Positions 760-19,176 of a stretch of DNA of 21,061 nt are shown one piece after another. The translations under genes were made by a program, and so were the position numbers. Under the pieces are notes generated by a model, which was not told where the DNA came from, ran no database searches, and saw nothing but the letters and a program-made list of their open reading frames with translations. Origin of the DNA: a virus. How positions within the stretch are numbered: position 1 is the first letter of the stretch; each line of letters opens with the position of its first letter. The stretch lies in IMG/VR virus record IMGVR_UViG_3300035698_002777, positions 1 to 21,061 of that record; one strand, given 5' to 3'.

Positions 760-2943
760 TTAGCTAATAACAGCAACAGTATTAATAGAAGTAGTCTGAA
801 CCGTAATTCTTTGAGATTTAACAGTAATAGCACCTACGTCACTATTATCAACAGTTAAACTCATTATAGTTCCATTAGCAGAAACGTCGAAATTGACCCC
901 AAGACTTGTGCCTACAGTAAGAATGGCATATTCAGTTAAGTCTGCAGAAGTTGTACCATTATGCATAGCATAAATCTCGCAAGCATATCTATTACCAGAA
1001 CCATCATAAGCAATTACAAACCATTTCACACCAAGATTTCCCGCCTGAGACACAGTATCAACTACCGTATCATTAGAAGATCCAGCAACCGCAGTGGTTG
1101 CTTCTGTAAGTACAGCGGCTGCCAAATTATCATGAGCAGTGTCTAGATTATCTACATTAGTATCTAGTCTAGCAATACCAGATGTAGTAGCTGTATTTAA
1201 AGTGTCAATAGCACTATCTAAAGTAGAAATAGCTTCAACAACTGAAGTATCAACTGTTACATAGTTTGTTGAAGTAAAATCCATACCAACAAGACCAGTA
1301 GCAGAACCCATAGCAGCTTCAAGATCATCAATATCACCAGCATTCACAGCAATACCAGAAGCATTGGTTGCTATGTCAGTATCATTAGTTGAAATATTAC
1401 CAGCATTGGTTGATATATTACCAGCATTAGTAGAAATATCACCTTCGTTAGTTGATACTCTACTTTCAAGTGAAGAAGCAGCAGTAGTAGCTGCATCTAA
1501 ATTAAAATCTAATTTTTCAACAGCTGTTTCAACAGAGTCAGCAGAAGAAATAGTACCAGAAGTAGCTGTGTAACCAGAAGAGATTGCAATAGAAGCAGCA
1601 GTCTCAAAATCGAAATCAGCAATTTTAATAACCGCTGTTCCAGCAGAATTCATCATATAAGCTGCGCCATCTTCTTGAGAACCTGGGTCATCAAGAAAAT
1701 CATACCGTACAGCTACAGCATTATTAGCGGCAAGTACGGAATCCTGTGACCATTGATCAGCCCCGTCATTCCAGATATAAATAATACCAGAAGTCGTAGC
1801 ATTAGTAGAAAGTACTTTCGCACCATCTGGCCATTCGTCATGAGTCCAAAAAGGTGTACTATCATCTGAAAAATGATCAGTGCCGGCATAGTCAGCTACT
1901 CCAGTAGTAATTACGTCAGCTGTAGCAGCAGTAATAGCTTGTTGCCAATTTACGCCTGCAGCTGAAAGATTATCTACTACCTGTAAGGCAGCATCTAATT
2001 TACTAATAGCTTCTTCTAGAGAATCACCATCAGTAATATAGTTTTCCTGGTTATAATCAGGAGCAGATGCGCCAGCAGAACCAGTATAAGTTTCAAGGTT
2101 ACCAATGTCAGTAACATTAGTAGCAATACCTGAAGCATTAGTAGCAATATTAGTTACATTAGTTGAAATATTACCAGCATTGGTTGAAATATCACCAACA
2201 TTAGTAGAAATATTACTTTCATTCGTGTCTACTCTACCAGAAAGAGTAGTAATATCAGCTTCAAGACCTGAATTAGTAGTATTCAACGCTATATCTAATT
2301 TATCAATAGCATCCTCTAGAGAGTCACCACCAACAATATAGTTTTCTTCAGTAAATTCAGTAATGGCAGGATCTGTGTTATCATCATTTCCAATAAAAGC
2401 CTGAACGTTATCAACATTACCAGACTCATCTGTATTAGAAAGAACCCAACCAGTAGCTGCTTCACCTGTGTAAAGCATTTCAAAATAACAATAGTTTAAG
2501 TCAATGACAAGATCATCGGCAGAGCCATTCATATTTAATCCATTTAAATCAATAGTAACATTATTTGTTTCAATATCACTAAGTCCAGCAAAACCAACAA
2601 CATCTCCTACTTCAGGTGCAGCGGGCATAGTTACCGTAAAGACCGCAGTTGAAGAATCCAGTATATAGCCTTTACTTATTTCAGCGGTAGCTGTTCCAGA
2701 AAGTGTAGACCAAAGTAGCCCACCATCACCACCTTCGATTTCACTGTAAGGTTGCCAAGCCGTATCAGCTACACCAGTTTTTTTATAAGATACACCACTA
2801 GATCTAAGGTATAAAGAACCTAATGGAGCTGCTATACCAGAAGCTGTTGATGGGTCACTAGAACCATTTATTATATTAGCCTCTACATCTGCATCAGTCT
2901 CACTAAATAGTTTTAAACCTTCTTTTATTCCAAAAAGTGCCAT
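760..2943 (-). CDS. Repeat-rich tail fibre / appendage protein
   Basis: This is a 727-residue protein starting at ATG 2943 behind an AAGGGGGG ribosome site. Residues 40-66 (GSLYLRSSGVSYKKTG) match the N-terminal module of the partial fibre at the left edge. Two blocks of seven-residue units built on I-S/A-T-N (about 237-281 and 495-540) look like coiled-coil or trimeric shaft repeats. Four copies of a D-S-x-E-x-A-I-x-K-L-D-x-A-L helix lie near 207, 307, 469 and 566. Helix plus heptad block forms a larger unit of about 90 residues that is duplicated (roughly 200-290 and 460-548), separated by an unrelated stretch from 330 to 455. The C-terminal 100 residues look beta-rich. Composition is low in cysteine and rich in Thr, Asn, Ser, Ala and Asp, as in virion fibres. 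I infer a trimeric tail or head fibre; the receptor is unknown. Confidence 0.75.
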   Translation of the reverse strand: MALFGIKEGLKLFSETDADVEANIINGSSDPSTASGIAAPLGSLYLRSSGVSYKKTGVADTAWQPYSEIEGGDGGLLWSTLSGTATAEISKGYILDSSTAVFTVTMPAAPEVGDVVGFAGLSDIETNNVTIDLNGLNMNGSADDLVIDLNYCYFEMLYTGEAATGWVLSNTDESGNVDNVQAFIGNDDNTDPAITEFTEENYIVGGDSLEDAIDKLDIALNTTNSGLEADITTLSGRVDTNESNISTNVGDISTNAGNISTNVTNIATNASGIATNVTDIGNLETYTGSAGASAPDYNQENYITDGDSLEEAISKLDAALQVVDNLSAAGVNWQQAITAATADVITTGVADYAGTDHFSDDSTPFWTHDEWPDGAKVLSTNATTSGIIYIWNDGADQWSQDSVLAANNAVAVRYDFLDDPGSQEDGAAYMMNSAGTAVIKIADFDFETAASIAISSGYTATSGTISSADSVETAVEKLDFNLDAATTAASSLESRVSTNEGDISTNAGNISTNAGNISTNDTDIATNASGIAVNAGDIDDLEAAMGSATGLVGMDFTSTNYVTVDTSVVEAISTLDSAIDTLNTATTSGIARLDTNVDNLDTAHDNLAAAVLTEATTAVAGSSNDTVVDTVSQAGNLGVKWFVIAYDGSGNRYACEIYAMHNGTTSADLTEYAILTVGTSLGVNFDVSANGTIMSLTVDNSDVGAITVKSQRITVQTTSINTVAVIS
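1324..1461 (-). repeat. 21-bp-period repeat block, second shaft block of the fibre gene
   Basis: Near-identical 21-base units encode successive I-S-T-N-A-G-N / I-A-T-N-A-S-G heptads at about residues 495-540 of the fibre. The pattern 'ttaccagcattggttgatat' recurs with few changes. Such in-frame tandem units can gain or lose copies by recombination and so change shaft length. Confidence 0.75.
2101..2235 (-). repeat. 21-bp-period repeat block, first shaft block of the fibre gene
   Basis: This is a second array of the same 21-base unit, encoding residues of about 237-281. It is similar in sequence to the block at 1324-1461, about 780 bases away, which makes the pair a possible site for in-frame recombination within the gene. 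Confidence 0.75.
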
Positions 2944-2957
2944 GATTTAATCCCCCC

Positions 2958-3284
2958 TTAAAAAGTTTTTAATCGTATAATACATTTTATTAAAGAGAGT
3001 TCATTGTTTGTTATTTCTAATTTACAACGATCTCCCCCAGCCACATATATAACTGTAGCTGTATTAAATCTTTTCCCTAAAAATGCATATGTAGTAGATT
3101 CTATAGTATCATCATTGTATAGACTTGATATCTTTGTAATCTCTTTGAAACTACCACTCAAGATTTTAACTTCCCAATCGAAAGCATCAAACCTACTTAG
3201 ATCAAGATCAAAAAATTCTTCTGTTTGTCCAGGTTGTATAGTTTTTTCTACTAGCTGTGCGTCAACTTTTTTTAGTACAATCAT
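2958..3284 (-). CDS. Small beta-rich protein, possible paralogue of the fibre C-terminal domain
   Basis: This 108-aa protein starts at ATG 3284 behind AGGTGG and ends 14 nt before the fibre start. It has no signal peptide or membrane segment. Alternating hydrophobic positions suggest a beta-sandwich. Its second half (Y-N-D-D-T-I-E-S-T-T-Y-A, then V-I-Y-V-A-G-G-D-R-C-K-L-E-I-T-N-N-E) aligns by eye, in order and spacing, with the C-terminal end of the fibre (H-N-G-T-T-S-A-D-L-T-E-Y-A, then F-D-V-S-A-N-G-T-I-M-S-L-T-V-D-N-S). I infer a single-domain relative of the fibre tip, perhaps an adaptor or cap for the fibre. The similarity is weak and judged by eye; no function is established. Confidence 0.6.
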   Translation of the reverse strand: MIVLKKVDAQLVEKTIQPGQTEEFFDLDLSRFDAFDWEVKILSGSFKEITKISSLYNDDTIESTTYAFLGKRFNTATVIYVAGGDRCKLEITNNELSLIKCIIRLKTF

Positions 3285-3311
3285 AACTTACTACCACCTA
3301 TTTTATTTAAA

Positions 3312-3782
3312 TTATCTTGAAATCTGTAGTTCCCTAACGCGTTTATGTAAAAGTCTACATAAACTGTCTTTATCAGCCATTTGTCTGGCTTCTGACAAAG
3401 AATACTTTAACAATACTAAATCTGTTACTTTTGGTAGTACATCTCTAGCTTTTCTAACAGTAAGGTTAACTACATCTTCTACTTGCATTTTCTTAGCAAC
3501 CATAGGAGTTGTGTGAGAAACAGATTGTCTATTTACCTTTACTTTTATTTCAGGTTCTTTTTTTAATGTAGGATCATTAAAATCATATACCACTTGCCAC
3601 TTACCTGAATTTTTAAGTTTTATTTCCTGTAACCAGTTAATAAATTCATCTCCTGGCTCCATGTCGTACTTCTTACCGTACTGTTCAAAAAGTTCTACCA
3701 GAGGTATTTCTCCTCCAGGCCTCACAGAGCGCTTCATTGCATAAGCCCATTCTTTAGAAATATTCTTTACAAAACCTTCCAT
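3312..3782 (-). CDS. Hypothetical protein, 156 aa
   Basis: The gene starts at ATG 3782, 8 nt after an AAGGAG ribosome site. The N-terminal third contains K-E-W-A-Y-A-M-K-R-S-V-R-P-G-G and an E-L-F-E-Q-Y-G-K-K-Y helix, and reads like a compact alpha-helical domain. The middle (about 60-85) is lysine- and proline-rich with likely beta strands. The C-terminal half is helical and basic (R-K-A-R-D-V-L-P-K-V, L-H-K-R-V-R-E-L). There are no membrane segments. Its place between head genes and fibres suggests a structural or assembly role, but I do not recognise the family. Confidence 0.6.
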   Translation of the reverse strand: MEGFVKNISKEWAYAMKRSVRPGGEIPLVELFEQYGKKYDMEPGDEFINWLQEIKLKNSGKWQVVYDFNDPTLKKEPEIKVKVNRQSVSHTTPMVAKKMQVEDVVNLTVRKARDVLPKVTDLVLLKYSLSEARQMADKDSLCRLLHKRVRELQISR

Positions 3783-4149: not shown

Positions 4150-5667
4150 TTATCCTCTACCTATTAAGTAGTTAGTTAATTCAAATTCATATGTTCTATG
4201 ACCACAGTCCCAAATTCTATCATATCCTTGTTCTAATCTTAATTGATATTCTGTTTTACCTATTAAACGTTCTTCAAAGGTTTTACGTAAAGAATAATTT
4301 CTATACCTTTTTCCTTGTTTAAAATAATGAGGGGTATATTTAGTAAATGTAAGTAATTTAAATCCTAAAGTTTCATATATAGGGTTAAATATATTAGCGT
4401 AACGCATGTCACAATAAGATCTTATTTCAGTATAACCTTCCTCTTTTGCAAATTTAATTGCGTGTTTGAATAATTTACTTGCGCCGCCAACAACCACAGT
4501 ATCTGGTAATGAACAAAGACGTTTTAGTTCTAAAACAGTATCACCAACAGTATGTTTCCTTATTATATTACCAACACTACATACACTAACAATTTCATCA
4601 TTGTAAAATAGTCCCCATCTCTTTTTAGCTGTAGACCTTCCTTGTAAATGATTAGAAACAAAAAAATCATTAGCTTCCTTACTTGAAACTTCCTTTACAA
4701 TACATTTCCTAGCAAAAATTGTTCGACTTGTGGTATTTAAAGCCTGAGCTATTCTAGACATAACAATATCAAAATTATCGTATAACTCATCTTCAAAAAT
4801 AGTTATTAATCTTATACCCTTATCAAAACATGAAATCATTTTTTCATAATGGTAGTTTCTTGGTTTTCCTGATGAATTTTCCCCATGCCAATATAAACCA
4901 CATACTTCAATAGCTAGTTTTTTAGTAGGAAAATACAAATCTAGTTCTTTGGGTGTTATCTGTGTTCTATCATTAAATATAACTTCAATATCTGGGAAAT
5001 TACTTGTAATATAATCTTGAACTGATTTTTCTGGTTTAGATGTATAATTATTTTGTAAATAACAACTCATACATCTAGTACCTTCTTTTCCTGGCAAATC
5101 TCTAAAACAATGGAAAGTAGTTTCCCATACATGTCCCTCTGGGCATTTCAATTTAATTTTAGTTTTACTATTTATATATTTATCTGACAATAACTCATAA
5201 CCACGTTCTTGTATATAACTTTTAATAAATTTAATAGAGTGTTTATTTGTTTTACCTGCAACATAGACTTTAACATCATTATTGACCATCCTATAAGATT
5301 TAGCCTTAGCTTGTAGACACTTCTCTCTATTATCTTTATAATATTTTCTACCTTTAATAATTAATTCTTCTTTACTACGTTTTGCATGAGAATTCTTATT
5401 TTTTAAAATAATTCTATTATTTTCACATTTTTCTGACCCACATGCTACCTGTCTTTCATAATAAGTAGAAAAACTAATACCACAAAACTTACACTGTTTA
5501 GTATATTCAACGTAATTATTTCTTTTTCTGCTTTGATTTCGCCATTGAATTTTTTCTCTAGCCTGTTTAGCTTTTTCTTTACAAGAACTACAATACTTTT
5601 GACTACCTGAAGTAGGTGTAAAAACCTCAGCGCAACCTTCCATTTTACACATTTTATCTTTATACAT
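4150..5667 (-). CDS. Homing endonuclease, Vsr-like (EDxHD) type with zinc modules and GNAT-like C-terminus
   Basis: A 505-aa protein behind a GAGGAA ribosome site. Domains in order: a Cys-rich finger (C7, C12, C26, C29); a second finger (C59, C62, C76, C81); a module at 150-203 (Y-E-L-L-S-D-K-Y-I-N-S, C175-P-E-G-H179, C199-x2-C202); and a nuclease core at about 210-310. The core has E-L-D-L-Y-F at 241-246, A-I-E-V-C-G-L-Y-W-H at 252-261 and I-F-E-D-E-L near 290. It resembles the Vsr patch-repair nuclease core and the EDxHD homing nuclease I-Bth0305I, with D243 and H261 as likely catalytic residues. Residues 315-460 resemble an acyltransferase-like fold often fused to such phage nucleases, and I-W-D-C-G-H near 485 matches the usual end of these proteins. 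I infer a free-standing element that cuts allelic DNA; the target is unknown. It is visibly AT-richer than the capsid gene. Confidence 0.82.
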   Translation of the reverse strand: MYKDKMCKMEGCAEVFTPTSGSQKYCSSCKEKAKQAREKIQWRNQSRKRNNYVEYTKQCKFCGISFSTYYERQVACGSEKCENNRIILKNKNSHAKRSKEELIIKGRKYYKDNREKCLQAKAKSYRMVNNDVKVYVAGKTNKHSIKFIKSYIQERGYELLSDKYINSKTKIKLKCPEGHVWETTFHCFRDLPGKEGTRCMSCYLQNNYTSKPEKSVQDYITSNFPDIEVIFNDRTQITPKELDLYFPTKKLAIEVCGLYWHGENSSGKPRNYHYEKMISCFDKGIRLITIFEDELYDNFDIVMSRIAQALNTTSRTIFARKCIVKEVSSKEANDFFVSNHLQGRSTAKKRWGLFYNDEIVSVCSVGNIIRKHTVGDTVLELKRLCSLPDTVVVGGASKLFKHAIKFAKEEGYTEIRSYCDMRYANIFNPIYETLGFKLLTFTKYTPHYFKQGKRYRNYSLRKTFEERLIGKTEYQLRLEQGYDRIWDCGHRTYEFELTNYLIGRG

Positions 5668-5685: not shown

Positions 5686-6495
5686 TTAGCAAATCTTATT
5701 TGCTATATTAACTGTAGTACAATCATCACTATGGCCAAATCTATAATGACAGTATACACAACATGCAATACCATTATCTGGATCTAGCGCATAAAATGGC
5801 TCAATTTTTTTAGGTTGTTCGTGATGAGCCGTGTTTGCATCTTTCCCACAATATTCACACCTATAGTTTGCTCTTTTAAGCACCTCTTTAGACCAAGTTC
5901 TTAACTGGCTGTCGCTATAGTATTCAATATTTCTACTTTTTCTTGGATTTTTACCTACAACATATTTGTGTTTATTGAATATAATACAACTAGATTTACA
6001 TTCTTCAGAACAATATAACTTACTTTCACGATCGGTGTTGCCTTTAATAAACTGGGCTCTAGCCTCTACAACAGTTCTTTTAGGAACAAACCATTTATTA
6101 CACAAAACACATCTAACCTCTAATAAATTATTAATATTTCTTCTAACCGATTCCACTTGACTTAATTGTTCCGCATAAGTATCAAATAAAGGAAGATTCT
6201 TTTTAACTACCCCTCCTTTAGACATTCTTTTAGATATAACTATTCTTTCTTTACTAGATCTTTTTATACCTTTCAAAGAAGAAGAGATTTTAGTGCGAAC
6301 AAGCTCTAATTTATTAGAACATTTATTACTACAAACACTTGTTGGGTAAGTCAAACGCATAAAAAACGATTTTCCACACACAACACAAGAAGATATAAAC
6401 TTATAATAAAGATTAGCTTTCCTATAAACATCACGTTTGTATATGTAATGATATTCTTCTAAGCTCTCTAAACCATTAATATATTTTATATTCAT
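5686..6495 (-). CDS. HNH homing endonuclease
   Basis: A 269-aa protein starting at ATG 6495 behind AAGGT. The C-terminal HNH domain (about 200-256) reads W-S-K-E-V-L-K-R-A-N-Y, C213-x2-C216, H224-H225, N241, C246-x2-C249-H250, with G-H at 254-255. This is the beta-beta-alpha metal nuclease with a structural zinc. The N-terminus carries a finger (C37, C40, C55, C59), a NUMOD3-like basic segment (S-L-K-G-I-K-R-S-S-K-E-R) and a third cysteine cluster (C129, C132, C162, C166). These are probably DNA-recognition parts. It lies directly behind the major capsid gene, with an 18-nt gap before the Vsr-like nuclease. It could be a solo mobile gene or the remnant of an intron-borne one; I see no intron core. 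It has its own candidate promoter. Confidence 0.85.
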   Translation of the reverse strand: MNIKYINGLESLEEYHYIYKRDVYRKANLYYKFISSCVVCGKSFFMRLTYPTSVCSNKCSNKLELVRTKISSSLKGIKRSSKERIVISKRMSKGGVVKKNLPLFDTYAEQLSQVESVRRNINNLLEVRCVLCNKWFVPKRTVVEARAQFIKGNTDRESKLYCSEECKSSCIIFNKHKYVVGKNPRKSRNIEYYSDSQLRTWSKEVLKRANYRCEYCGKDANTAHHEQPKKIEPFYALDPDNGIACCVYCHYRFGHSDDCTTVNIANKIC

Positions 6496-9760: not shown

Positions 9761-10870
9761 TTAGTCGACAAGTTTTTTAGCTTTATCTAAAATACTTTGT
9801 AAGCGTTCTAATGAGTTTGCTGTTAACCTCTGCGAACGTTTACTATTTAAAAGAGTTTCAACATAAGAAGCAGTAGTACTTTTTACTTTATTTCTTAAGC
9901 AACTTTGGTCAGAAGCGTCTCTAGAAAATGAAGTACATGCTTGCGAGTATTCGCTACACCAATTTTCATTAACTACATTTCCTTCTTTATCTTCTACTCT
10001 CTTTTTATAACTTACACAGATTCCAATGGAATCCTTATAGGTGAGTTCAGAAATTTCTTGTTCACCTTCTATCTCTTTAGAGGTTACATTAATAATTTCT
10101 TTTTGAGCCTCAATAGCCGCTTCTTTTTTAAGGGTTATATCAAAAATTATTACCCCATCTTCGTTAGTGCCAGATGCTGTTTCTAATACAACACTTGGTG
10201 GGTTGGCCGGGGTCTTAACAATCCCACAGCCAGAAAAACAAATACCACGAAGTACTCTTTCTATAGTACCTGTGGCAATTTCTTTACCATCTTTTATTAT
10301 ACTTCCTTTCTGGCCAAATATCTTATCATTTGCCGTGTCAATTCCTACCGCGTTTGCTGCATCTTTAGGTAGTATTACATCACCTACCTTAACATCATAG
10401 TCTGTATAAAAACATTCCATACTTACACGCCATTCATCATTAGCTATTTCTTTAGATAGCTCTGGAAATCTGCTTTTATATATAACAGACCCAATTTGTA
10501 TATGCATATCTTGTGTATCTAAAGTAGCAGTCTCGGTAGAAGCTAACTCAGCTATATTAAGTTTATTTCCTGTAGAATTTGTAAAAGCACTTGAATAGAT
10601 ATGACCTATTATTTCATCTTCCACATGCTCAACATCCATTGCTTTACTAATAATTGTATCTTTAGCAGCTACTAACTCACTTCCTAAAAAACAGGCATTA
10701 TTTAAATTGGTACCTGTTGATACCAAAATAGCAGAAAAATAACTTAGATCTGGCTGTTTATCACTTCCTTGTGGTAAGTTAATTACCGAAGCAACTTCCT
10801 TTTGGATAGCATCTGTGACCTCTTCCAGTTTAATACTTGCAGTTAAATAAAATTTATTTTTAGTTTCCAT
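9761..10870 (-). CDS. Prohead (head maturation) protease
   Basis: A 369-aa protein predicted to cleave scaffold and capsid termini during head maturation. The N-terminal half carries two motifs expected for the herpes/HK97-type serine proteases. These are K-A-M-D-V-E-H-V-E-D-E-I-I-G-H at 76-90, with H82 as likely catalytic histidine, and E-W-R-V-S-M-E-C-F-Y at 146-155, with S150 as likely nucleophile. A later G-I-V-K-T-P-A-N-P-P-S at 216-226 resembles the conserved end of the protease core. The remaining C-terminal part (about 235-369) is charged and may act as a delivery or scaffold-like tail. The gene lies between portal and scaffold. Its start codon and its AGGAG ribosome site lie inside the 3' end of the GIY-YIG gene (11-nt overlap). 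Confidence 0.75.
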   Translation of the reverse strand: METKNKFYLTASIKLEEVTDAIQKEVASVINLPQGSDKQPDLSYFSAILVSTGTNLNNACFLGSELVAAKDTIISKAMDVEHVEDEIIGHIYSSAFTNSTGNKLNIAELASTETATLDTQDMHIQIGSVIYKSRFPELSKEIANDEWRVSMECFYTDYDVKVGDVILPKDAANAVGIDTANDKIFGQKGSIIKDGKEIATGTIERVLRGICFSGCGIVKTPANPPSVVLETASGTNEDGVIIFDITLKKEAAIEAQKEIINVTSKEIEGEQEISELTYKDSIGICVSYKKRVEDKEGNVVNENWCSEYSQACTSFSRDASDQSCLRNKVKSTTASYVETLLNSKRSQRLTANSLERLQSILDKAKKLVD

Positions 10871-12293
10871 TTATTGCTCCTATATTATCTACTTTTTTAC
10901 ATTTAAACCCTTTGTGATGATTTCTTCTATTATGTGCTACAAGCCACATACCTCTATCACTCAAATTATTATCTCTACAAAAAGCACTTAAATTTTTTAT
11001 TATCTCAACATTACCATTAGGATATATTATTTCCCAGTACTCACTCTTTGCTGCAGCCACATTTGCTACATGTTCTTTAGATTTTTTGACTCCACGTCTC
11101 TGTACTGACATTCTTTTCTTACTCTCTTCAGACATTATTACTCCGGTTTTAGATTTAGAAATTTTACGTTTAGTGCTTTCTTTACATACTCTTCCTATAG
11201 TACCTTCACCCCCCAAAGTCATATTGTATCCATTTTTATATGAATCGTAATATTTTATATAATATATCTCTTTCTCATCTAGTTTGGATTTAGTCCCACA
11301 TTCACATAAAATTTGCCATGTGAAATTATCTTTTCCATGTTTATTAATGGATCTATGAAAGTGTGTTTTTACATTTAACTTATTAGATAAACTAATATGT
11401 TTAATTTTTCTACTATGTAAATCTCCACATGTCTGTCCAATATATACTTTATCAGTTATTTTATTTGTTACCTTATATATAATACCGTCTATTTTTATAT
11501 TTGAATGAGCTTTGTTTTCATATTTAGGTTTGCCAGAATTATTTTCATAACTACAGTATTTACATATATGACCATTTTTCCATGATTTCCATGACATACT
11601 ATTAGAATGACCTCTATCACAAATAAATTCCAATTTTGTATCTGTATTCATATATCCTTTAGACAGCAGTTTATATCCTTTAGATTCAAAGGATTTTCTT
11701 ATTTCTTCTACTGTAGGCTGTGAGTTTTTTGGATCTTTCCATGGGCGTTTTCCTTGTCTCCATGACAACCAAGTAGTATAATATTCTTCTTTATTACTTA
11801 ACCTTAATTTCAATTTTTGCCTATTATTTATATAAGTATCTTCTAATAAAATGCAACCTTCTGATTCTATAATATTTTTTATATAATTAAAATTTATTCT
11901 TTTAGGCTTTTTAGTCCTATACCGTATACTACATTTATCACAACCGCATCTATGTCCTTGCTGCCAATCATTCCATCTAATATAATACTTGTTACCATTA
12001 GGACATATACAATCAATTAACTGTTTATTATTTAAATATTCTTTAGTTAAAATAGTGTAGTTTTCAGACTTAAATGATTTCCCTATCTCACCTATATTAA
12101 TTTTAGTTTTTTTAGAACAGTATGGGCATCTATTACCAAATCTCCACATAGACCATGTAATTCTATGTTTATGCCCCTTAGGACAAATATAATTAAGCTT
12201 ACTTCCTGAATTTATATACTCGTTACTGAGTAAAATATAATCCTCATTTTCAAACTGCTCTTTAACAAACCCTAATGTTAGTTTTTTACTCAT
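10860..12293 (-). CDS. GIY-YIG homing endonuclease with four zinc-ribbon-like repeats
   Basis: A 477-aa protein. Four copies of a module of about 50 residues fill 9-247, each reading Y-x-L-L-S/T-x-x-Y-I/L/M-N, then C-P-x-G, W-x-x-W-x-x-G and C-x2-C. The third copy (138-183) has lost its cysteines. The GIY-YIG nuclease follows at 268-362: G-I-I-Y-K-V-T-N-K at 270, K-V-Y-I-G-Q-T at 282, R295, E342 and G-Y-N-M-T-L-G-G-E-G at 355-364. NUMOD3-like segments (S-T-K-R-K-I-S-K-S-K-T-G and S-E-E-S-K-K-R-M-S) and a NUMOD1-like helix (N-L-S-A-F-C-R-D-N-N-L) complete the DNA-binding tail. The ATG at 12293 overlaps the portal stop by 8 nt, with GGAGA 10 nt upstream. The 3' end overlaps the protease start by 11 nt. 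It interrupts the usual portal-protease order and most likely spreads by cutting alleles without it. Confidence 0.87.
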   Translation of the reverse strand: MSKKLTLGFVKEQFENEDYILLSNEYINSGSKLNYICPKGHKHRITWSMWRFGNRCPYCSKKTKINIGEIGKSFKSENYTILTKEYLNNKQLIDCICPNGNKYYIRWNDWQQGHRCGCDKCSIRYRTKKPKRINFNYIKNIIESEGCILLEDTYINNRQKLKLRLSNKEEYYTTWLSWRQGKRPWKDPKNSQPTVEEIRKSFESKGYKLLSKGYMNTDTKLEFICDRGHSNSMSWKSWKNGHICKYCSYENNSGKPKYENKAHSNIKIDGIIYKVTNKITDKVYIGQTCGDLHSRKIKHISLSNKLNVKTHFHRSINKHGKDNFTWQILCECGTKSKLDEKEIYYIKYYDSYKNGYNMTLGGEGTIGRVCKESTKRKISKSKTGVIMSEESKKRMSVQRRGVKKSKEHVANVAAAKSEYWEIIYPNGNVEIIKNLSAFCRDNNLSDRGMWLVAHNRRNHHKGFKCKKVDNIGAINGN

Positions 12294-14735: not shown

Positions 14736-17700
14736 CTACTTCTTCTTCTTTGTTAGCACTGCTGCTCCTAAACCAAATCTTGCTAAACCAGGACTTCCAG
14801 CACCTAAACCTGATGCAGAATTTAATGCATTGAAAGCATGACCTCCACCTCTTTGTCTAACCAACCCGCTTTCATTATAGAGTACAGGTTCGCCTTCTTC
14901 CTCTAATTCTCTTTCAACGTGTCTTGTGCCATGAGCTGCTAAAATTAGCGCAGAATATAAATCTTTCTTCATACTTTTCGTGGGGGTATCAAAATGTAAT
15001 AAACCTGAAGCAGTTTGAGTAACAACTATACTAAGTAATTGAGATTTCAATGTAGTAACATTGTTATAGTGTTTAGCCATCATATCATCTGCTGATACTG
15101 AAAGTTCTGGAAAACGTAGACTACCATCCTCAAACATAGCTTTAGTTGTGAAATTGGCATCTGCTATCCAGGTAGGATTAAAATTAACCATCTCTAATAT
15201 ATGTCTACCATCTTTATGAACATTATCAGGATTTGTTCTATCTAAAATAGGTTCTTTATTACCATAACCTTCCTCTAATAAATCCATTATGGCTTTACCG
15301 CCGCCGCCCTTATCCATAAATATTCTTAATACGTTGTATTGGTCTACTAATCCCTGAATAGATTTAGTTAGTTCTTGTGTAGTTTTAGTTTTTAACTCTA
15401 CAGCATTTACTATTCTATTAGGACTTCCCATCTCACTTATAATCACACCACAGCTATCTGCTCCACCTTGATTGGGATCAACACCCATAATATAACTTTT
15501 CTTTGAGCTGCCTTTATACATTAAGGAAAACCCAGAATCTAATGTACAACTATCCAGTAAGGATGCCTTAAAGAATCCTTCTGAATCTGATACCATAGCT
15601 CCTTCGTACTCCATTCTGTATTCATGGCTGGTCATAATACGCTTCGCTTCTGCAATGTTCTTTTTGTCTAAGAAACCATCAGGAGCATCCCAATAAGGCA
15701 CTTGCCAAACAGAATATTCACTCTCTTCTCCCTTAGCCTCAGCTTCATTCATCATCTTCCAATGATCCTGCATTCTGCGCCACATGTGATTAAACTTATA
15801 GTAACCTGAAGATGTCATTACCATCTTATTTACTTTACCTGCTATGAAATCTGACTCTTGTGCTAAACCAGCGTTTATCAACCTATTTTGTTCTTCTAAT
15901 TGACGTACTCTTTCCATAGGTGCTAATGCTGTTGCGCCCATAGGCCTGATTACCAAATCTAATGTCTGATCTGGTACCTGAGCTAACTCATCCACCAATA
16001 TCAAATAGAAACGTGACCCACGAATCTTAGATCCATCGCCAAGAGGAAGTCCTTCGATGTATGAGGGTGTCTTACCAGCCACTGATTTAAATTTTAAGAA
16101 GCTTCTATCTGAAGCGTTTGTCGGTTTCTTTGAAGAAGCCTCTCTAAGAATAGATGATTGATCATATAATTTCTCTACTTCTGAAAATATCATTTTTGAA
16201 TTATGATTAATGAATCCATTTGCCCAATAACAATGTTCATTTTCTACTTCTATGTCTATTGTTTCTGACATAAAATGCTCGAATTCTTCAACCTGCACGA
16301 AATATAATTTATTATCTATTATTTTCTTTAATTTAAAATAATTAGTATCTTTAATATTCAACGATTCGGCGAACTTAAGTAAAGAATCAATTCTATTATA
16401 ACTATAATTAGTTTTTCTATATTTTTTGTGTCTATTTAAGTACCAAGACGTAAACTCTGCCCCATCAGAGGCTATCTTACATTCAGTGGCCAAATTCCAC
16501 ACGCACTCAAAAGAACCAGGTATAGTATTATTAAAATCTTCTTTAGTAATACTATCTATATAATTATTTAAAAGATTATTTTTTCTAGTTAAACCAAAGG
16601 CTATTTCATCACTAAACATTGTAATATTACTAGTTCCAATAATCCGTAATCTATAACACTCCTTACAAGTGTAAAACTTTCCTCTGTTAGCAAAGTACTT
16701 ACGCTGATTCTTACTCTTTATTTTAAATGAACTTATTATACCGATGTTCAACAACACAGACTGAATTTCTTTACATAATCTTTTACTTGTAGATACATAA
16801 CTTACTGTACATGATTTGTTATTACCAGATGTATTTATCTCACAACAACCATCTGTATCGAAAGCTCCTGATAGAAAAGAAGTTATATTTACCTTAGAGG
16901 ATCTTTTTAATTGTTTAGGTATAATTTTATCTATAGAAGTAGTAGATGACATACCTAAATCCTTAAGAAAATTCCAAAGAACTATACTATATATTTGTAC
17001 TATATATGTATTTTCACGCTTAGTTACACGTAGTCTATCATCTTTTATATTAAATTCTTTTTCTAAGATATGTTTGTATCTATTTATTAACTCAATATCT
17101 TCACTACAAAAACTTACTTCCCATAATCTTCTTTTTACATCTTCATTTTCTATAAATCCATCACCACACAATAAACCCAATAAATAAGAAATGTTCTTAT
17201 TTATTGAAACTGGTAAAACTATATCACCTATATATCTACTATAAGTATTAATTACATGTGAATTATCTAGTAAGGTATTATTACCAAAATAATTAAATCC
17301 TGTTTTAATAGCTACAATATCTTTTTTATTTAAATACTGCAACTCTTTATATTCTAAATCTAGTTTTTCATTTAAAATCAACACTCTATGATCTATAGTA
17401 CCAGATATCTCAAACCCTTTGGTACAACTAACAGTAGTACAAGGTCTTTCTGGATTCTTCCATTTATTTTTAATTATATTTTGTGATTCCATTGATTGTA
17501 CTGAAGTATTATCTATATCTACTGAATCATAAAATTCCTTTGTAGTAGAAAATAATCCATCAGAAGTCCAAAAAGTATCATAAGTATCTGAAATCATTGG
17601 AAAACATTGTCTAAAAACGGGCCCAATCAGTCCTACACGATATCCTGGATATAATAAACAACTAAGGGTGGCTAGTACACCAAGCATATACGTTTTCCCC

Positions 17701-17885
17701 CCGCCACGACCCATTACAGCTATAACGTAGTTCTTAAACCACATGTCCCTAAATACCATACGCTGGATAGGAGCTAAATCCACACCCAGCAGTTCATAAG
17801 CTGCCGTACATGGATGAGCTCTGTAAAATTCTATTAATTGTTTACCTTTGGTTAATAACTCATCTAAGTTGCGGCGTTGTTTCAT
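14736..17885 (-). CDS. terL: Terminase large subunit with in-frame intein
   Basis: A 1049-aa precursor; removal of the intein (residues 94-562) leaves a 580-aa ATPase-nuclease that pumps DNA into the procapsid. The ATPase has Walker A at 58-65 (M-G-R-G-G-G-K-T) and Walker B F-Y-L-I-L-V-D-E-L-A at 626-635. The RNase-H-like nuclease shows I-M-G-V-D-P-N-Q at 799-806 (D803), I-F-M-D-K-G-G-G-G-K near 855-864 (D858) and K-K-D-L-Y-S-A near 973-979 (D975). Joined exteins read G-L-I-G-P-V-F-R-Q then S-K-M-I-F-S-E-V-E-K, which makes a continuous terminase segment just after the first ATPase strand. The C-terminus is Gly-rich and ends K-K-K-K. The start is ATG 17885, 3 nt after the previous stop, with only a distant GGAG, so coupling is likely. 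Confidence 0.93.
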   Translation of the reverse strand: MKQRRNLDELLTKGKQLIEFYRAHPCTAAYELLGVDLAPIQRMVFRDMWFKNYVIAVMGRGGGKTYMLGVLATLSCLLYPGYRVGLIGPVFRQCFPMISDTYDTFWTSDGLFSTTKEFYDSVDIDNTSVQSMESQNIIKNKWKNPERPCTTVSCTKGFEISGTIDHRVLILNEKLDLEYKELQYLNKKDIVAIKTGFNYFGNNTLLDNSHVINTYSRYIGDIVLPVSINKNISYLLGLLCGDGFIENEDVKRRLWEVSFCSEDIELINRYKHILEKEFNIKDDRLRVTKRENTYIVQIYSIVLWNFLKDLGMSSTTSIDKIIPKQLKRSSKVNITSFLSGAFDTDGCCEINTSGNNKSCTVSYVSTSKRLCKEIQSVLLNIGIISSFKIKSKNQRKYFANRGKFYTCKECYRLRIIGTSNITMFSDEIAFGLTRKNNLLNNYIDSITKEDFNNTIPGSFECVWNLATECKIASDGAEFTSWYLNRHKKYRKTNYSYNRIDSLLKFAESLNIKDTNYFKLKKIIDNKLYFVQVEEFEHFMSETIDIEVENEHCYWANGFINHNSKMIFSEVEKLYDQSSILREASSKKPTNASDRSFLKFKSVAGKTPSYIEGLPLGDGSKIRGSRFYLILVDELAQVPDQTLDLVIRPMGATALAPMERVRQLEEQNRLINAGLAQESDFIAGKVNKMVMTSSGYYKFNHMWRRMQDHWKMMNEAEAKGEESEYSVWQVPYWDAPDGFLDKKNIAEAKRIMTSHEYRMEYEGAMVSDSEGFFKASLLDSCTLDSGFSLMYKGSSKKSYIMGVDPNQGGADSCGVIISEMGSPNRIVNAVELKTKTTQELTKSIQGLVDQYNVLRIFMDKGGGGKAIMDLLEEGYGNKEPILDRTNPDNVHKDGRHILEMVNFNPTWIADANFTTKAMFEDGSLRFPELSVSADDMMAKHYNNVTTLKSQLLSIVVTQTASGLLHFDTPTKSMKKDLYSALILAAHGTRHVERELEEEGEPVLYNESGLVRQRGGGHAFNALNSASGLGAGSPGLARFGLGAAVLTKKKK
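16200..17606 (-). mobile_element. Intein with LAGLIDADG homing endonuclease inside terL
   Basis: A 469-residue class 1 intein. It begins at C94 of the precursor (C-F-P-M-I-S-D-T-Y-D-T-F-W-T-S-D-G, block A) and ends with H561-N562 before S563 (block G, W-A-N-G-F-I-N-H-N). Block B is G-F-E-I-S-G-T-I-D-H at 157-166. The endonuclease has two LAGLIDADG helices, Y-L-L-G-L-L-C-G-D-G at 234-243 and F-L-S-G-A-F-D-T-D-G at 337-346, with block D-like K-I-I-P-K-Q-L between them. Block F is I-D-I-E-V-E-N-E-H-C-Y. All key splicing residues (Cys1, block B Thr and His, terminal His-Asn, Ser+1) and both acidic nuclease residues are present, so splicing and homing could be active. An additional C-x2-C at 407-410 is unexplained. 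Confidence 0.92.
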
Positions 17886-17888
17886 AGT

Positions 17889-18428
17889 TTATTTATAGTC
17901 TCCATCTGTTCTATCTTCTAAATTATCTTCTATATCATATCTATTACCCGTGTAGTCTTCTCGTTTCTTTGCCATAGCTTTTTCTTCTTTACGAAGCTTC
18001 TCTAACTTATCTGCATGTTTATTTTGTACATCCTGGTCATACGCCACAGCTAAATCTACGATAGAAAAACCCTTTAACTCATTAGGATTTATTCTATCTC
18101 TTCTACGTGTAGATAAACTTTCTTTTATCTTTTCATTTCTTTTATCTAATTTTTCTAAAGTGGCTGCAATATCTATTTGTCTATCTGTATCATTTTTACT
18201 TTCTTTAAGGAGTCGTAAAGCTAAAACCTTGTTCATAGCAATATTCATTATATCATCCATATCACTAGAAATTAATTCATCAGCATCAAAATCAGAAAGA
18301 TAAGCCTCAATATAATCATCATATAGACTAGATTCATCAGGAGTAAAAATGGCATCCTTAGGTAAGATATCTTTTATAAGTTTTCTAAATATTATTTTTT
18401 TTGGTTTACCACTACCTTCTCCACCCAT
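17889..18428 (-). CDS. Probable terminase small subunit
   Basis: A 179-aa, highly charged helical protein whose stop lies 3 nt before terL. It starts at ATG 18428, one base into the previous stop (TAATG), with GAGGGGG upstream. The N-terminus is G-G-E-G-S-G-K-P-K-K and basic. An acidic helical region follows (D-D-Y-I-E-A-Y-L-S-D-F-D-A-D-E-L). Then come a long helix with L-E-K-L-D-K-R-N-E-K-I-K-E-S-L and a basic R-R-R-D-R-I-N-P-N-E element like that seen in several small terminases. Position immediately before terL is the main support. The neighbouring 150-aa protein, which has a DNA-binding motif, is a competing candidate. Confidence 0.6.
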   Translation of the reverse strand: MGGEGSGKPKKIIFRKLIKDILPKDAIFTPDESSLYDDYIEAYLSDFDADELISSDMDDIMNIAMNKVLALRLLKESKNDTDRQIDIAATLEKLDKRNEKIKESLSTRRRDRINPNELKGFSIVDLAVAYDQDVQNKHADKLEKLRKEEKAMAKKREDYTGNRYDIEDNLEDRTDGDYK

Positions 18429-18874
18429 TAGCTTATTTCCCCCTCATACACCTCATCTTCTATTTCTACTCCAGAAGAAGCAGTTTCCTGTTTAAACATT
18501 AATAACAATTCTGGAGTAATAGAATGACTAAATATTTCTTCTATATTATTCCCGTATGATATTTCTATCCTTAATTTATTATACATTGATTTAGAAGTTA
18601 ACACGTCACATAAATCATCTAAATCATCACTAACATCATAAAACCATTGGCACAGCTCATCATCATCAGGCCTACCATAAGTATTAACAAGTTCCTCTGA
18701 TAGAGGATACTTTCTTTTAAAATAATGCTGCAAAGATTTAGATATCTTATCTTTAGTAGCCTCCTTATGTTTTTGTCCTTTTTTTGCCTCACTTATGGCT
18801 CTCTTACTGGCTTCAGTTAACTTAAATCCCATAGGACGTCCTTTTCTACCACGCATAACAATGGAAGGTTCCAA
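18428..18874 (-). CDS. NUMOD3-like DNA-binding protein upstream of terminase genes
   Basis: Residues 1-60 hold G-R-K-G-R-P-M-G-F-K-L-T-E-A-S-K-R-A-I-S, then E-A-K-K-G-Q-K-H-K-E-A-T-K-D-K-I-S-K-S-L. This is a tandem NUMOD3-type motif usually found in the DNA-binding tails of homing endonucleases, yet no nuclease domain is present. The rest is acidic and helical (D-D-D-E-L-C-Q-W-F-Y-D-V-S-D-D-L-D-D-L). TTG at 18874 has GGAGG 7 nt upstream and is my choice; GTG 18880 is too close to that site, and ATG 18856 lacks a good one. It may recognise packaging-site DNA with the terminase, or be a remnant of a mobile gene. Function is inference. Confidence 0.6.
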   Translation of the reverse strand: MEPSIVMRGRKGRPMGFKLTEASKRAISEAKKGQKHKEATKDKISKSLQHYFKRKYPLSEELVNTYGRPDDDELCQWFYDVSDDLDDLCDVLTSKSMYNKLRIEISYGNNIEEIFSHSITPELLLMFKQETASSGVEIEDEVYEGEIS

Positions 18875-18876
18875 TA

Positions 18877-19176
18877 TCACACCTCCGTTACTTTAGAGAA
18901 TTTATTACATTTCTTACATATAATACCAACAGTAGCTGTAGTACCACAAGTTACATTACCACAGTTATTACAGCGTATTAATGAGTTTCCACCTAGAGGT
19001 TTATAAGGTTTTCTAAAGGAAAATGGAAGATTTTTATGGGTATCTGCATATTTACTTTCTTTATGTATACGATTGTTAAGTTTACCTATTCCCTCTTCAG
19101 GTTCCCATCTTCTTGGTGTTGCTCCTGGTTTTAATTCTCCTATACCCGCTTCATCAAAAGTATATTTATCACTCAT
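18877..19176 (-). CDS. Zinc-ribbon protein, 99 aa
   Basis: It starts at ATG 19176, 4 nt after AAGGAG. The first 60 residues are polar, with G-I-G-E-L-K-P-G-A-T-P-R-R-W-E-P-E-E-G-I-G-K. The C-terminal 35 contain C69-N-N-C72-G and C87-K-K-C90-N, a four-cysteine zinc ribbon likely to bind nucleic acid or protein. The stop overlaps the neighbourhood of the next start. Its position ahead of the DNA-binding protein and terminases suggests a role in packaging or transcription of this operon, but no enzymatic motif is present and the role is unknown. Confidence 0.6.
   Translation of the reverse strand: MSDKYTFDEAGIGELKPGATPRRWEPEEGIGKLNNRIHKESKYADTHKNLPFSFRKPYKPLGGNSLIRCNNCGNVTCGTTATVGIICKKCNKFSKVTEV

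Follow-up and report, generated by a model that had tools for sequence, protein, structure and literature searches.

The gene for the terminase large subunit in the window (the whole stretch of 21,061 nucleotides analysed here) is proposed to carry a full-length, apparently splicing-competent class-1 intein with an intact LAGLIDADG endonuclease, which behaves as a mobile selfish element at the motif FRQ/SK (the slash marks the insertion point); from sequence comparison and structure prediction we put the probability of this reading at about 0.95. The terminase large subunit is 1049 aa long, and its minus-strand open reading frame, 14736-17885, stays open through all 1049 codons. The exteins contain the Walker A motif GRGGGKT, the Walker B motif VDE and a nuclease domain, as is characteristic of terminase large subunits; the non-intein remainder of the frame matches terminase large subunits in PHROGs, and the orthologues resemble T4 gp17 and P74-26 TerL both by profile and by fold. 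Precursor residues 94-562 form the intein of 469 aa, and the spliced terminase would be 580 aa long. The junction codons on the minus strand are C94 (17604-17606), N562 (16200-16202) and S563 (16197-16199). The gene is divided as follows.

17607..17885, minus strand: N-extein, terminase residues 1-93, with a profile match to T4 gp17 and P74-26 TerL
17691-17711, minus strand: Walker A GRGGGKT, terminase residues 59-65, a motif in the N-extein
16200..17606, minus strand: intein of 469 aa (precursor residues 94-562), running from Cys1 to His-Asn (Pfam, alignment, AlphaFold2, Foldseek)
17304..17606, minus strand: N-terminal portion of the Hint splicing domain, covering roughly intein residues 1-101 and including block B GTIDH (model secondary structure, alignment)
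16602..17198, minus strand: LAGLIDADG homing endonuclease at roughly intein residues 137-335, with D149 and D252 (Pfam LAGLIDADG_3, model)
16314..16589, minus strand: all-helical segment that follows the endonuclease, at roughly intein residues 340-431 (alignment, model)
16200..16307, minus strand: C-terminal portion of the splicing domain with blocks F and G, DIEVENEHCYWANGFINHN (NCBIfam intein_Cterm, alignment, model)
14736..16199, minus strand: C-extein, terminase residues 563-1049, Ser+1 first, with the nuclease domain (orthologue fold: T4 gp17, P74-26 ATPase, G20c nuclease)
within 14736..16199, minus strand: Walker B VDE, precursor residues 631-633, a motif in the C-extein

The original prediction had described a complete, apparently active intein within the terminase ATPase domain, beginning at Cys94 about 30 residues after Walker A, ending at His-Asn before Ser563 and having all splicing residues and both LAGLIDADG acids intact. 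Sequence, predicted fold and relatives agree with this assignment, both ends are exact on the minus strand, and the intactness of the residues is seen in the alignment; the placement after Walker A also stands, with the precise gap from the Walker A lysine (residue 64) being 29 residues.

The intein is complete and almost certainly functional; its splicing is predicted from the residues it retains and from its modelled fold. Pfam finds Intein_splicing (1.9e-10) and LAGLIDADG_3 (4.3e-16, in two stretches), both exceeding the curated cut-offs and far beyond chance, and NCBIfam intein_Cterm, at 16.6 bits, passes its cut-off of 15.6. The position-1 nucleophile is Cys94 of the precursor, a position occupied by Cys or Ser in every complete sister intein. 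Block B has the TxxH pattern in GTIDH (intein T70 and H73), the block F Asp is present, and the C-terminal His-Asn, of which H468 and N469 are invariant across 13 inteins at this site, is followed by Ser+1. Extein residues beyond +1 can also block splicing. Both LAGLIDADG motifs keep their catalytic acids, LLGLLCGDG with intein D149 (precursor D242) and SGAFDTDG with intein D252 (precursor D345), and the all-helical segment that follows them is reduced or absent in several aligned sister inteins. An AlphaFold2 model built with 26 related inteins adopts the Hint fold (pLDDT 90.5, pTM 0.92); the best solved structures found by Foldseek are the TliVMA intein (7qss, E 3.3e-22) and PI-PfuI (1dq3, E 6.8e-21), and a profile built from the intein set has PI-PfuI as its top match (9e-22), reaching the C-terminal HN. 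A direct PDB search with the full 1049-aa precursor gave no matches, and the structural relatives emerged from profiles. PI-PfuI and TliVMA share the architecture of a Hint domain with an inserted LAGLIDADG endonuclease, but they are only about 17% identical to the intein of the window, have a different extra helical segment and reside in archaeal host proteins, V-ATPase for TliVMA and what we take to be ribonucleotide reductase for PI-PfuI.

The insertion lies between Gln93 and the Ser of the invariant FRQ/SK motif and separates Walker A from Walker B. Alignment to P74-26 places it at IIAPTYDQ/AEIIF, equivalent to the start of the helix after the strand that follows the P-loop helix. The model of an intein-free orthologue (L013) matches the folds of T4 gp17, Sf6 gp2 and the P74-26 ATPase; its confidence is moderate overall (pLDDT 77, pTM 0.57) and higher over the initial portion of the ATPase domain. 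Because a 469-aa insert parts Walker A from Walker B inside the invariant FRQ, there are good grounds to expect that the unspliced precursor would be unable to pack DNA and that splicing must come before ATPase activity and packaging. Mycobacteriophage TerL insertion sites have been mapped on the P74-26 pentamer, and the authors likewise held the precursor unable to pack (Kelley et al. 2016, PMC5050341).

Scans of IMG/VR yielded more than 70 orthologue contigs. The terminase tree has 79 rows, of which 63 lack an insert at FRQ/SK and 16 have one (three contigs ending inside the intein included). In the intein-free orthologues residue 93 joins residue 563 directly and the flanks abut exactly, leaving a continuous extein, from which it follows that the intein boundaries are exact. 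In 35 intein-free orthologues neither FRQ nor the Lys two positions after it varies. The +1 residue of the empty alleles is nearly always Ser; it is Ala in three (L041, L044 and L094), which, judged from their sequence, could not support this splicing chemistry unless changed. The nearest intein-free orthologues are L012 and L013 (78%), and among other phage records Microcystis phage MaeS and Bacillus phage Slash have the nearest terminases without an intein. Empty sites are up to 42/48 nt identical to the joined site of the window and are candidate endonuclease targets. The host signal comes from only three binned metagenome contigs, which belong to unrelated candidate phyla. Besides the full terminase, L022 has a second, short terminase-like ORF a few genes further upstream (429-1148), as do L047 and L104 and, more weakly, L064; that of L022 has 240 aa, with a P-loop and a DE box, no nuclease domain and Ala after FRQ.

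Inteins in this terminase occupy three sites within the same ATPase domain: site A within Walker A, where it parts K from T, site B at FRQ/S as in the window, and site C at GDG/SKIRG before Walker B. The inteins of each site form one clade with full support, that of site B being monophyletic (100/99), and a site-B profile scan finds full-length relatives solely in TerL at FRQ/S. Two inteins in the ATPase domain are found in the orthologous terminases of L011, L030, L054, L071, L087, L096, L144, L145, L148 and L149. Every pairwise combination occurs, A+B in eight distinct genes and also A+C and B+C, whereas none of the orthologues examined has inteins at all three sites. Both endonuclease acids are intact in 20/22 distinct site-B inteins versus 8/18 site-A inteins (p 0.002, a guide only since the rows are related), and endonuclease decay shows only a trend with double occupancy (p 0.16 and 0.64).

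The distribution of the intein is sporadic. Labels are scattered over the terminase tree, where, judged by the starred branches, the B-only label must have changed at least 8 times and the "empty" label at least 13 times. L001 and L003 share flanks of 7.6 kb at 99.5% identity and of 1.8 kb at 98.9% (~9 kb in all), and their C-exteins are identical (1461/1461 nt), yet the two carry different inteins at the same site (1718-3121 and 2268-3512, respectively) that are only about 40% alike. These inteins differ over most of their length and identity resumes in the last C-terminal splicing block, indicating a breakpoint inside that block. L010 has the intein and its close relative L062 (85-87% DNA identity) lacks it, and L092 equals L091 except that 84 aa are deleted within the site-A endonuclease. 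Compared with L001, the intein of the window has a dN/dS of about 0.2, which points to purifying selection, with silent sites near saturation. The low raw silent divergence from L001 (dS 0.95 for the intein, 2.3 for the extein) was considered as a sign of recent transfer and rejected; as the dS of distant intein pairs is no different, the low intein value reflects AT-bias saturation. A codon-shuffle control gave 0.66 against 0.55 expected for the intein (z 5.6) and 0.50 against 0.45 for the C-extein (z 2.3), an excess that hints at transfer of the intein after the terminases diverged. Taken from these sequence patterns, the site-B intein looks like a mobile parasite and not a fixed regulator.

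It had also been suggested that the intein delays or conditions packaging during infection. On this explanation slow or conditional splicing (responding to redox, temperature or DNA) would time packaging, and the FRQ/S intein, alone or jointly with the inteins that relatives carry at Walker A and before Walker B, would be a post-translational checkpoint keeping the motor inactive until a trigger late in infection. The location in the ATPase core, where the unspliced precursor should be inactive, agrees with it, as does Cys1, which could be redox-sensitive; a similar proposal was made for the TerL of Mic1 (PMC7156551) and was raised for mycobacteriophages too (PMC5050341). However, most orthologues manage without the intein, the nearest intein-free ones (L012 and L013) included, occupancy is sporadic with alleles swapped between near-identical phages or missing, and many sister inteins begin with Ser, which leaves a redox switch at Cys1 unconserved. 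Moreover, seven mycobacteriophage TerL and related inteins have been described (TerL1-a to -e, TerL6-f and Pham3880-g), five of which were shown to splice, all of those tested in E. coli doing so readily, and two to cut intein-free DNA (Kelley et al. 2016, PMC5050341). The suggestion thus finds no support here, and we regard such a checkpoint as very improbable.

Still less probable is a degenerate, non-splicing remnant in a dead terminase or a defective phage: endonucleases do decay in relatives and the window is only a 21-kb fragment, but the frame is open over 1049 codons with all splicing residues present, the exteins are strongly conserved (dN/dS about 0.05-0.1) and the surrounding head genes are intact. 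That residues 94-562 are a genuine terminase domain, as the uninterrupted reading frame might suggest, has a negligible probability and is ruled out by the 63/79 terminase rows without the segment and by the matches to intein families and folds.

For the mobile intein we infer splicing, DNA cleavage and the dependence of packaging on splicing, and we propose the following course. After translation the intein would excise itself by the standard chemistry of Cys1, Asn cyclisation and Ser+1, and the flanks would be ligated to the normal 580-aa terminase. In mixed infections the endonuclease would cut intein-free terminase genes at FRQ/SK, and repair of the cut would copy the intein into the empty allele. 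The element could then persist as a selfish one because the motif it occupies is essential and any imprecise loss there would be lethal. The pattern of occupancy and decay fits a homing cycle of invasion, decay and loss, with the element of the window in its intact phase; intact residues in one sequence are no proof of recent homing, since the sister inteins of L071 and L087 have lost catalytic acids.

Inteins in phage packaging motors are already well known. As in the family described here, those of mycobacteriophage TerL occupy several neighbouring sites in the ATPase domain, including Walker A K/T and Walker B, but in another terminase family and in other hosts (PMC5050341). The c and d sites of that study lie in a poorly conserved helix, whereas FRQ/SK is invariant and follows the P-loop strand; by this comparison of descriptions the FRQ/SK insertion point may be undescribed. 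Microcystis phage Mic1 and a crAss-like Delta phage have TerL with two inteins (PMC7156551, PMC7886860), as do relatives of the window, unlike the terminase of the window itself with one; the inteins of Mic1 are in the ATPase and nuclease domains (PMC7156551), whereas all three sites of the present family are in the ATPase domain. Haloarchaeal MCM also has neighbouring intein sites in one ATPase gene, filled singly or in pairs (PMC10643990); the present family differs in being a phage gene, and its homing is predicted from sequence. As a single case the intein of the window is ordinary. The terminase family, in contrast, is a natural record of phage intein dynamics, with three adjacent sites each holding its own clade, and it combines cleanly empty alleles with alleles swapped between near-identical genomes and with decaying endonucleases, so that co-homing and interference between adjacent inteins are testable by sequence comparison within the family.

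Three free-standing endonuclease-like genes sit among the head genes of the window, and the region is thus heavily loaded with selfish endonucleases.

4150-5667, minus strand: Vsr-like, free-standing homing-endonuclease-like gene (phrog_559/3339)
5686-6495, minus strand: HNH, free-standing homing-endonuclease-like gene
10860-12293, minus strand: GIY-YIG of the group I intron type, free-standing

There is an 8-base overlap between the GIY-YIG ORF and the end of the portal-like gene. The minus-strand gene 18428-18880, which lies two genes upstream of the terminase, encodes a small conserved protein with a NUMOD3 DNA-binding motif at its start (GRPMGFKLTEASKRAISEAKKGQKH). It is syntenic in L022 (1465-1896) and may be a DNA binder related to the small terminase and made from an endonuclease motif. 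In L160 (5001-5069 and the 556-aa ORF around it), a RecA-like phage protein has a short intein just before the Walker A TGKS.
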